A stretch of DNA of 64,000 bases. Source: Halomonas salipaludis. Lineage in GTDB: Bacteria; Pseudomonadota; Gammaproteobacteria; Pseudomonadales; Halomonadaceae. The notes under the pieces are model-generated. The model searched no databases. It was given only the letters and a program-made list of their open reading frames with translations, and had not been told where the DNA came from. Location: positions 1 through 64,000 of the forward strand of contig NZ_NSKB01000005.1 of the NCBI RefSeq assembly GCF_002286975.1, read 5' to 3'. Every line of letters begins with the position of its first letter. The stretch's first letter is position 1. Shown here in pieces: positions 35,058 to 61,538 of the stretch. The position numbers were made by a program, and so were the translations under genes.

Positions 35058-36446
35058 ATGCGCTATATCAGTACCCGCGGGCAGGCGCCCGCGCTCTCCT
35101 TCGAGGATGTCGTGCTGACCGGGATGGCCAGCGACGGTGGCCTCTATGTGCCAGAGCAGATCCCGCAACTGAGCCGTGACGACCTGGCGGCGATGGCCGG
35201 GCTCTCCTACGCCGAGATCGCCTTCCGGGTGATGAGGCCGTTCGTCAACGGCGAGATCGACGACGAGACGTTTCGCGGCATCGTCACCGAGGCGTACGCC
35301 TCGTTCAGCCACGATGCGGTGGTGCCGCTAAACCAGCTCGACGCCAATCACTTCCTGCTCGAGCTGTTCCACGGCCCGACGCTGGCCTTCAAGGACGTCG
35401 CCCTGCAGCTGCTCGGCCGGCTGCTCGACCACTTCCTGAGCAAGCGCGGCGAGCGTGCGGTAATCATGGGCGCCACCTCCGGCGACACCGGCTCCGCCGC
35501 CATCGAGGGTTGCCGCCACTGCGACAACCTCGATATCTTCATCCTCCACCCGCACAACCGGGTCTCCGAGGTGCAGCGTCGCCAGATGACCTCGGTGCTG
35601 GCCGACAACGTCTTCAATATCGCCATCGAGGGCAACTTCGACGACGCCCAGGCGATGGTCAAGGCGAGCTTCGCCGACCAGTCGTTCCTCGGCGGCACCC
35701 GGCTGGTAGCGGTCAACTCGATCAACTGGGCGCGCATCATGGCCCAGATCGTCTACTACGTGGCCGCCGGCGTGGCGCTGGGCGCGCCGCATCGCCAGGT
35801 CAGCTTCTGCGTGCCATCGGCCAACTTCGGCAACGTCTTCGCCGGCTACATGGCGTCGCGCATGGGGCTGCCGGTCAAGCAGTTCATCATCGCCACCAAC
35901 GCCAACGACATCCTGCACCGCACCCTGGCCGCCAACGACTTCTCCAAGCAGGAGCTCAAGGCGACCCTGGCGCCGTCGATGGATATCGTGGTGTCGTCCA
36001 ACTTCGAGCGCCTGCTGTTCGAGGCCTATGAGCGTGACGGTGAGGCGGTTCGCCAGCTGCTCGAGCGCTTCCAAGCCGAGCCCACGGCGCTGGCCGAGGC
36101 GCCGCTCGAGCGGCTGCGCTCGCTGTTTGCCAGCCACAGCGTCGACGATGCCACCATCCTCGAGGTAATTCGCGAGGCGCACCACCGCACCAAGGAGCTG
36201 CTCGACCCACACACCGCCACCGGCTATCGCGCCGCCGAGCGGGCGCGGGCCGATGCCGCCACGCCAATGATCACCCTGGCCACCGCCCACCCGGCCAAGT
36301 TCGCCGAGGCGGTGGTCAAGGCCGGCTTCCCGGGGGTGCCGCTGCCACCGCATATGGACGACCTGCTGGAGCGCGAGGAGCGCTATAGCGTGCTGCCGGC
36401 GGAGCTGGACAAGGTGCAAGCGTTCGTGGCCGAAAATCGGCGCTAA
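35058..36446 (+). CDS. thrC: Threonine synthase
   Basis: A 462-residue PLP enzyme (MRYISTRGQAPALSFEDVVL). PLP Lys in GPTLAFKDVALQ, phosphate loop GATSGDTGSAAIEG, and the C-terminal PHMDDLLEREERYSVLP. It converts O-phosphohomoserine to threonine and follows hom by 80 bases. Its TAA stop lies in the first unit of an 11-copy heptamer array. Confidence 0.96.
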   Translation: MRYISTRGQAPALSFEDVVLTGMASDGGLYVPEQIPQLSRDDLAAMAGLSYAEIAFRVMRPFVNGEIDDETFRGIVTEAYASFSHDAVVPLNQLDANHFLLELFHGPTLAFKDVALQLLGRLLDHFLSKRGERAVIMGATSGDTGSAAIEGCRHCDNLDIFILHPHNRVSEVQRRQMTSVLADNVFNIAIEGNFDDAQAMVKASFADQSFLGGTRLVAVNSINWARIMAQIVYYVAAGVALGAPHRQVSFCVPSANFGNVFAGYMASRMGLPVKQFIIATNANDILHRTLAANDFSKQELKATLAPSMDIVVSSNFERLLFEAYERDGEAVRQLLERFQAEPTALAEAPLERLRSLFASHSVDDATILEVIREAHHRTKELLDPHTATGYRAAERARADAATPMITLATAHPAKFAEAVVKAGFPGVPLPPHMDDLLEREERYSVLPAELDKVQAFVAENRR

Positions 36447-36519
36447 GAGCTAAGAGCTAAGAGCTAAGAGCTAAGAGCTAAGAGCTAAGAGCTAAGAGCT
36501 AAGAGCTAAGAGCTAAGAG
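36443..36519. repeat. Heptanucleotide tandem array, 11 perfect copies
   Basis: Eleven head-to-tail copies of CTAAGAG cover 77 bases without an interruption. The thrC stop codon is the TAA of the first unit, so changes in copy number would not alter the protein. The array lies in the thrC-recJ gap. Confidence 0.97.
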
Positions 36520-36532
36520 CCTGAGATAGCGA

Positions 36533-36638
36533 GGGGCGCCGGGGACAGGCCAGAGAGGGGGTCTTTTGCCATGGATGGCAAAAGTAGCGCCCAGGGATGG
36601 GTTCACAGCGCCCCCTCGTAGGCCTGTCGACGGATCAG
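36533..36638 (+). repeat. Dispersed palindromic repeat, copy E1
   Basis: An outer inverted repeat (GGACAGGCC ... GGCCTGTCG) encloses a central hairpin TTTTGCCAT-GG-ATGGCAAAA and the segment AGCGCCCAGGGATGGGTT followed by CACAGCG. A clearly related copy lies inverted at 61383-61487 and a partial one at 46660-46785. It contains no plausible gene. The rest of the thrC-recJ gap, to 36820, holds only recJ leader sequence. Confidence 0.8.
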
Positions 36639-36833
36639 CCTCGAGCGGGCATCTGCTACCAGTGGCTGGGGATTCCCACTATGACCTTCGTTTCCTGTGC
36701 CCCTCACCACCCGTCGTTGGCCGAGCGGGTAGCCACCAATAGATAGATTCGCGGCTGCCCTAGGCCCGGCGCCCCTGGTCCGTGTCGATACAAGGCCAAT
36801 ACCTAACGCCCCTCGTTGCAACAGGAGCCACGC

Positions 36834-46526: not shown

Positions 46527-46605
46527 AGGGGCGCCGGAGGCAGCTGTAAAGGGAGGCGCGGCGCATCAGAGCCAGGCGGGCAAGGCAAAAGCGAACCTCA
46601 TTCTT
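46527..46605 (+). repeat. 79-bp intergenic direct repeat, copy A
   Basis: It begins AGGGGCGCCGGAGGCAGCTG and ends GCGAACCTCATTCTT. A second copy lies at 46660-46738 with four mismatches in 79 (about 95% identity). No gene is plausible in the 375-base lysS to 46898 gap, which is filled by these copies and a hairpin. Confidence 0.9.
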
Positions 46606-46659
46606 AAGGGGCGGAGTAAAGCCGAACTCTGAAAGCAAAGCACGTTGCAACAAACCATG

Positions 46660-46785
46660 AGGGGCGCCGGAGGCAGCTGCAAGGGGAGGCGCGGCGCATC
46701 GGAGCCAGACGGGCAAGGCAAAAGCGAACCTCATTCTTCAGGGATGAAGAATGGAGCGCCCAGGGAAGGGTTAACAGCGTGTGAG
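46660..46785 (+). repeat. 79-bp direct repeat copy B plus hairpin and conserved flank (copy E3 of the dispersed repeat)
   Basis: After the 79-bp repeat (46660-46738) comes a hairpin ATTCTTCA-GGGA-TGAAGAAT and then AGCGCCCAGGGAAGGGTT and AACAGCG. This right flank matches that of the repeat at 36533-36638, where the hairpin sequence is entirely different. The left start GGGGCGCCGG is also shared. Confidence 0.7.
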
Positions 46786-46897
46786 CGTTGCCTTGTACGT
46801 CTGGCGTTCATCTCCGAGAGTGAATGGGCCGGAAGTGTTGGTAAGGTGCGCTTCGAGCGCCCATAATGGTCGGCGTTTCGCCGTCGAGGAGATCGTG

Positions 46898-61323: not shown

Positions 61324-61382
61324 AGGCGCGGCCGGCGGTGCAGGGTGGCTGTGTTTCCGCAGTTAGTAGCATCGCTCGGAAC

Positions 61383-61487
61383 TGATCCGGCGACAGGCCT
61401 ACGAGGAGGCGCTGTAAATACCTCCCTGTACGCTACCTTGCGCCATCCATGGCGCAAACCTCCTCTTCGGCCTATCCCCGGCGTTCC
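61383..61487 (-). repeat. Dispersed palindromic repeat, copy E2 (inverted)
   Basis: On the minus strand this aligns end to end with the copy at 36533-36638. The outer arms (GGATAGGCC ... GGCCTGTCG) pair with one G-T, and the inner hairpin is TTGCGCCAT-GG-ATGGCGCAA. It sits in the 378-base radC-rpmB gap; the rest of that gap is the rpmB promoter and leader. No gene is plausible there. Confidence 0.8.
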
Positions 61488-61538
61488 TTGCTACGAGAGC
61501 GCGCCTTGCTAGGGAGTGCGCAATATTTGGCACGCTGC

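Follow-up and report, generated by a model that had tools for sequence, protein, structure and literature searches.

A dispersed intergenic RNA repeat with paired ANGGAN hexaloops, a candidate CsrA-docking element, in Halomonas salipaludis and other Gammaproteobacteria

Three intergenic gaps in a 64,000-nucleotide stretch of Halomonas salipaludis DNA (the window; contig NZ_NSKB01000005.1, positions 1 to 64,000) carry related sequences built around a central hairpin. The initial annotation of this stretch aligned two of them, E1 and E2, added a third, partial copy, and proposed that structure is being maintained, "perhaps as RNA or as a protein-bound cruciform". This raises two questions: in which molecule is the structure selected, and what could it be for?

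E1 (full copy 36525-36652, + strand) and E2 (61368-61495, - strand) are indeed present as aligned copies, and both match the covariance model of the family, R1, across its whole length (E 7.2e-33 and 2.6e-34). As R1 was built partly from E1 and E2, these matches hold partly by construction; R2, a loop-blind model built without both, recovers them at E 3.8e-13 and 4.1e-14. The paired changes that had been reported, TTTTGCCAT/ATGGCAAAA in E1 against TTGCGCCAT/ATGGCGCAA in E2, and the pairing of the outer arms in both copies were verified in the sequence. In E1, hairpin 1 (36563-36584, +) consists of the stem CTTTTGCC/GGCAAAAG and the hexaloop ATGGAT (36571-36576), and hairpin 2 (36587-36609, +), with a CCC/GGG stem and the hexaloop AGGGAT (36593-36598), lies within a conserved junction, GCG...TTCACAGC; the two GGAs are 19 nt apart. 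In E2, the first hexaloop, ATGGAT (61445-61450, -), sits on the stem TTGCGCC/GGCGCAA and the second, AGGGAG (61422-61427, -), is closed by TAC/GTA. The third copy (46696-46815, +), supported by R1 (E 2.2e-8), R2 (E 2e-4) and its fold, is a divergent member of the family: its place beside the other two stands, but its stem, previously described as unrelated, is the same module in other letters that still pair. It carries the hexaloops AGGGAT (46740-46745, +; stem ATTCTTC/GAAGAAT) and AGGGAA (46762-46767, +; stem CCC/GGG) on a basal stem of its own (CAAGGCAA.../...TTGCCTTG).

All three copies are intergenic, as had been noted. E1 lies in the thrC-recJ gap, 78 nt past the thrC stop codon and sense to both genes, the third copy lies between lysS and the next gene, and E2 is antisense to both neighbours in the radC-rpmB gap (gene names here are our reading of the open reading frames). 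On the sense strand, the fold energies of E1, E2 and the third copy beat 200 of 200 dinucleotide shuffles (z -5.2, -6.9 and -3.8). The antisense strands also beat 200 of 200 (z -4.6, -5.0 and -4.3), so that fold energy is uninformative on the strand. Beside these copies, about 11 tandem TAAGAGC heptamers run from the thrC stop codon on (36444-36520), an array similar to one in Franzmannia pantelleriensis, and directly 3' of lysS (46528-46617) the 5' half of the third copy is partly duplicated in tandem, hairpins excluded.

The repeat is confirmed as a dispersed intergenic repeat, and it is larger than initially described. A DNA search of the genome with E1 gave at least 42 matches (40 of 117 candidates scored), E2 being absent among the matches listed. 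When genomic copies were collected with R1, as had been suggested, the 5.48-Mb genome yielded at least 116 matches at E<=10 and at least 109 at E<0.01, well beyond the three copies first seen, which are all included; the 109 also comprise split pieces and six copies that have lost both hairpins. With a home-made gene caller, 108 of the 109 overlap no called gene. Our comparisons rely on three alignments. A1, the source of R1, holds 31 oriented copies aligned with plain MAFFT (30 from the E1 DNA search, and E2). A2 holds 92 of the 109 genome loci, 17 being left out (the six without hairpins and 11 split pieces). A3 holds 56 distinct copies from outside the Halomonadaceae, taken from 49 of 52 order-wide loci after three duplicates of the same place had been dropped; these loci are high scorers and no random sample. 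A1 was not fitted to the model; A2, A3 and a further alignment, A5, were, and they lean towards it.

Beyond this genome, R1 matches at least 67 of 101 genomes and 16 of 24 genera in the family (E<=0.01), at least 97 of 293 genomes and 49 of 119 genera in the order (E<=0.001) and at least 39 of 369 genomes and 35 of 272 genera in the class (E<=1e-4), the order and class tallies containing own-family genomes (8 and 2 among the matches listed). In eight genomes picked because they contain copies, R2 counted from 25 to at least 149 copies (150 candidates scored in each). Phage records gave no match. Plasmid records gave one, NZ_CP040452.1, a 1.83-Mb plasmid record of Halomonas sp. PA16-9 with eleven places similar to E1; searched with two other heads, they gave no match.

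The repeat unit is about 125 nt long with a conserved two-hairpin head. From the outside in, a basal stem interrupted by internal loops leads to a 7-bp stem (GAGGAGG/CCTCCTC, GAGGGGG/CCCCCTC or further paired variants) and this to two adjacent hairpins. The stem of hairpin 1 covaries and is 7-10 bp long (one of its A1 pairs is GC in 16 copies, AU in 10 and UA in 5); the loop on it is ATGGAT or a variant. In hairpin 2, which lies within a nearly invariant AGC...GCG junction, a CCC/GGG or TAC/GTA stem carries AGGGAN or a variant as its loop. Two further forms were recognised: a divergent type, exemplified by the third copy, in which the basal stem differs copy by copy, and a long type in which hairpin 1 bears an insert of about 80 nt with a hairpin of its own (CTGGCC/GGCCAG around ATGGAT). 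At one site with almost identical flanks, the insert is present in locus L202 and there is none in loci L187 and L197 (4420-4626). This insert is perhaps a nested small element carrying its own ATGGAT hairpin.

The structure assigned to A1 comprises 35 pairs, obtained partly from RNAalifold, and 98.5% of its 1084 cells are paired. Against shuffle controls, which ignore the relatedness of the copies, 17 of the 35 pairs are changed on both sides (shuffled mean 7.6; reached by 0 of 500 shuffles), and the covariation score is 0.262 versus 0.134 (reached by 0 of 500), falling to at most 0.073 when the structure is slid. The corresponding scores are 0.406 versus 0.161 in A2 and 0.925 versus 0.203 in A3, again reached by 0 of 500 shuffles in either case, with slid values of 0.09-0.15 in A3. 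The covarying cells of A3 number 732 versus 204.5 in shuffles; two of its five covariation measures are not clearly above the shuffles, namely further pair types (109 versus 109.9) and double-change pairs (31 versus 29.6).

These pairs also bear on the molecule in which the structure is selected. On the GGA strand, G-U cells exceed A-C cells by 76 to 2 in A1, by 187 to 20 in A2 and by 94 to 16 in A3, the G-U count being possibly inflated in A2 and A3 by their fitting to an RNA model in which G-U is permitted. A single column pair, 67-81, is G-U in 30 of the 31 A1 copies; without it the ratios are 46:2, 100:20 and 75:16, and when a second pair (17 G-U) is also removed from A1, 29:2 remains. In a selected DNA, G-T is A-C on the other strand and equally bad, so that a G-U excess on one strand favours RNA and disfavours a DNA cruciform. 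The proposal of a maintained structure thus holds, since pairing is kept through change in 31, 92 and 56 distinct copies, and of the two forms it had offered, RNA is favoured over the protein-bound cruciform. Altogether, an RNA structure is strongly supported, with the GGA strand favoured.

While the structure had been recognised from the start, the functional clue had been missed: the head presents two ANGGAN hexaloops. In A3, the A and both Gs of loop 1 are found in 56 of 56 copies and the A that follows them in 55, and each of the A, G, G and A of loop 2 in 56 of 56. Positions 2 and 6 of the loops vary over two to four letters, leaving A and GGA as the invariant part. The closing pair is C-G in 55 of 56 copies for loop 1 and in 56 of 56 for loop 2. 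On the sense strand, two CANGGANG per copy are present in 30 of 31 (A1), 86 of 92 (A2) and 53 of 56 (A3) copies; on the antisense strand no copy has two, and one is found in 1, 4 and 2 copies, respectively. Under a stricter rule that asks for at least 3 closing base pairs, two or more hexaloops remain in 24/31, 61/92 and 54/56 copies, the second loop being closed by only 2 bp in many copies of this genome. The distance from GGA to GGA is narrow: 19-20 nt in all 30 scorable copies of the 31 in A1 and 20-21 nt in 49 of the 52 scorable copies of the 56 in A3. Among the 85 scorable copies of A2, 69 fall at 19-20 nt, 15 at 66-67 nt, the spacing of the long type, and one at 30 nt.

So that knowledge of the loops could not steer the search, R2 was built from 20 heads outside the family with both loops masked. 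In the window, its matches at E<=0.001 are E1, E2 and the third copy alone, and it matches 45 further places in the 80 named loci. Two C-G-closed ANGGAN hexaloops are present in 39 of 41 distinct R2 hits and in 26 of 30 R2 loci from the eight genomes, the strand of four of the 30 being taken by the better result. One hexaloop is absent in the four other loci, three of which come from a single genome (G355) where the first loop has five nucleotides and contains GGA.

CsrA acts as a global regulator, and sRNAs that serve as its decoys are known. Its high-affinity site, derived by SELEX, has the consensus RUACARGGAUGU, with six-nucleotide loops in 44 of 55 cases, and CsrA can bridge two sites 10-63 nt apart, the optimum being printed as >18 nt (PMC7652899). 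ANGGAN is likewise the motif of RsmN and RsmA (PMC3791407). The repeat displays the corresponding features, that is, C-G-closed ANGGAN hairpin loops and at least two sites at a bridgeable distance. It also resembles the flaA leader of Campylobacter jejuni, in which two GGAs stand 21 nt apart in adjacent CANGGANG-type hexaloops, 18 nt being optimal, and whose mRNA titrates CsrA; unlike the repeat, this leader is one individual 5' UTR, and one of its motifs covers the ribosome-binding site (PMC4894983). The hairpins also differ from the SELEX ones, which mostly have at most 4 contiguous pairs (PMC7652899), stem 1 of the repeat having 7-10 bp. The full SELEX 12-mer occurs in 0/31 A1, 1/92 A2 and 5/56 A3 copies, and is absent from 150,400 flank bases. 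One csrA was found in the genome, and its translation has the canonical CsrA start.

Because the motif match is precise in its ANGGAN hexaloops, C-G closure and spacing, we consider it probable, on sequence grounds, that this structured RNA, encoded by a dispersed repeat that is or once was mobile, docks and titrates CsrA. The two-hairpin head would hold one CsrA (RsmA) dimer, its GGA spacing being close to the published optimum (PMC4894983, PMC7652899). Copies carried on the transcript of a neighbouring gene would dock CsrA there and affect mRNA stability or translation, and the copies together would act as a distributed CsrA decoy, which is possibly sizeable given one csrA against about 200 potential sites. 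Should CsrA bind the repeats, they would bring a large, unannotated share of many gammaproteobacterial genomes into CsrA control, and regulon models would have to include dozens to hundreds of sites per genome; for a dispersed repeat in bacteria, a defined RNA-protein function would also be unusual. More tentatively, and with rather less confidence, the repeats may be mobile "portable CsrA operators" throughout the class, each insertion putting an mRNA under CsrA and the copy number setting a sponge spread over the genome; a repeat would in that case rewire CsrA regulons, much as happens to eukaryotic transcription networks through transposons. Among the matches listed from the open-licence literature, judged by titles and abstract openings, with subscription journals mostly outside its scope, there is no dispersed repeat with CsrA sites. 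CsrA was weighed for another repeat and judged unlikely there, GGA motifs being lacking (PMC4679880), and two putative CsrA-related sRNAs are reported in Alcanivorax (PMC9788540).

The placement of the copies bears on how CsrA might be docked. In the own-genome set (103 copies, with the six hairpin-less ones left out and one element counted twice), 61 copies lie sense and 17 antisense between co-directional genes (p 6e-7), 12 follow, in sense orientation, one gene of a converging pair and 13 separate diverging genes. The sense copies between co-directional genes lie at a median of 47 nt past the upstream stop codon; the 17 of 103 that are antisense to both neighbours include E2. Most copies of this genome are placed past stop codons, between cistrons or, in some cases, in leaders, where the GGA strand could be part of a neighbour's transcript. 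Outside the family, where a cruder gene caller was used on 56 of 58 A3 matches (one second fetch and one orthologous copy left out), co-directional genes flank 21 copies in sense and 17 in antisense orientation, the remaining classes holding 10 and 8, and there is little sense bias. The antisense copies and this order-wide split count against a simple 3' UTR rule. Copies of both orientations at the thrC-recJ gap, described below, likewise weigh against the CsrA reading.

The position past stop codons, the sense bias in this genome and basal stems of up to about 38 bp would also suit an element of RNA stability or processing, whose long stem blocks exonucleases or is cut by RNase III, CsrA binding being secondary. 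This explanation leaves the invariant A, GGA and C-G closure of two loops and their narrow spacing unaccounted for, and we regard it as unlikely, if the best placed of the alternatives. Outside the family, the basal stems are often 25-38 bp long, almost perfect and different in almost every copy inspected by eye (loci L268-L307); one basal stem recurs in a second genome (loci L297 and L299). Template switching, quasipalindrome correction and insertion into existing palindromes are candidate origins for such long, differing stems.

By eye, the heads within one genome are much alike despite differing basal stems, which is why the head seems to move or to be copied and the stem to be constrained mainly to pair. 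This would be expected too of selfish DNA of the REP/REPIN or MITE kind, in which a transposase reads the hairpins as single-stranded DNA, the loops are transposase contacts and CsrA is irrelevant. Copy number is high, placement is intergenic, deleted forms exist, and the basal stems could be MITE terminal inverted repeats. Turnover is also seen at the E1 site. When the thrC-recJ gap was compared in 80 named Halomonadaceae and the window, 46 of the 81 had a copy (21 in +, 24 in - and 1 in both orientations) and 35 had none, a weak match (L236) being counted as none and a cut-off match (L163) as +; on the thrC tree this amounts to at least 10 changes of presence and at least 10 of orientation. 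The thrC of the window shares 97% identity with the Halomonas socia gene. Beside several copies in this gap, traces of an oppositely oriented one were seen by eye, which suggests that an inverted pair once stood there and that one partner was retained; these scars fit such retention better than inversion in place. In the window, a sequence noted by eye at 36756-36780 (GGCCCGGCGCCCCTGG) may be what remains of the mirror arm of an inverted partner that E1 has lost; it is comparable to the scars of relatives in the same gap. Outside the family, oppositely oriented elements stand about 16-150 nt apart at eight order-wide loci.

Other observations count against this selfish reading. The G-U excess over A-C points to RNA, the degenerate rule followed by both loops is the CsrA rule, and inverted neighbours within 600 nt were found for just 4 of 102 own-genome copies (a set without the six hairpin-less copies and one split piece). 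A REP-associated tyrosine transposase had been suggested as something to look for; the genome gave a single weak Y1_Tnp match (35 bits, C1:742591), with the nearest copy about 33 kb away among the matches listed, so that mobility driven by such an enzyme is unsupported in this genome. REP and REPIN sequences are likewise palindromic, extragenic, in high copy and sometimes in inverted pairs (PMC3116915), and the repeat does consist of dispersed extragenic palindromes. It differs from them by its RNA-stranded wobble, by the lack of an adjacent RAYT among our findings and by its unit of about 125 nt with a two-hairpin head. We therefore hold a purely selfish element to be improbable, marginally more so than a stability element.

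Antagonist sRNAs of the Csr/Rsm type are independent transcripts that end in an intrinsic terminator. The copies might be dedicated genes of this kind, with their own promoters and repeated by chance. The multiple ANGGAN hairpins would fit, and for Halomonas anticariensis the Csr sRNA is given as unknown (PMC7366521). However, none of the same 102 own-genome copies and 1 of 40 order-wide ones has a U-run (at least 6 T in 8, within 37-48 nt over the 3' edge), many copies lie close to gene ends, and all five GacA-box-like palindromes of the genome are more than 3 kb from any copy among the matches listed, making such genes very unlikely. At C29:228940 (locus L267) there is a perfect palindrome, TGTAAGCAATGTCTTACA, which we take to be GacA-box-like and which a dedicated Rsm-type sRNA might adjoin; no clear GGA-rich sRNA was seen by eye in its surroundings. 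That the copies are intrinsic terminators or unrelated hairpins aligned by chance, the reading that would have undone the initial proposal, can be dismissed as highly improbable, since hairpins past stop codons are here almost devoid of U-runs and the aligned copies have a common head with invariant columns.

Among known systems, CsrB/CsrC and RsmX/Y/Z likewise imitate CsrA targets by hairpins with ANGGA/ANGGAN loops (PMC7366521, PMC3791407). They are encoded by dedicated genes, of which a genome has few, with up to nine listed for Azotobacter vinelandii (PMC7366521), whereas the repeat has roughly 100 dispersed intergenic copies, mostly with two sites each and almost no terminator. Of the Csr/Rsm sRNA models, the genome-wide search covered that of RsmZ (RF00166), whose best score was 12.6 bits against a cut-off of 44. 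All Rfam models run over the repeat in the window and in eight loci of order- and family-level kin returned no family above cut-off; sub-cut-off miRNA and sRNA matches in the kin loci probably reflect the long stems. Because tested features of each are lacking, we place the repeat in neither the CsrB/RsmZ nor the REP families, and it is best read, from its sequence, as a putative CsrA-site RNA in dispersed-repeat form. The TwoAYGGAY RNA (RF01731), which going by its name has two AYGGAY motifs as the repeat does, is listed from human gut, gamma-Proteobacteria and Clostridiales in an entry that makes no mention of dispersed repeats (PMC2864571). Its gathering score of 43 is not reached by the repeat, with 31.6 bits at locus L246 and 24.6 and 22.7 bits in this genome. 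These last two are the only matches of RF01731 genome-wide at E<=10, and both are copies of the repeat.
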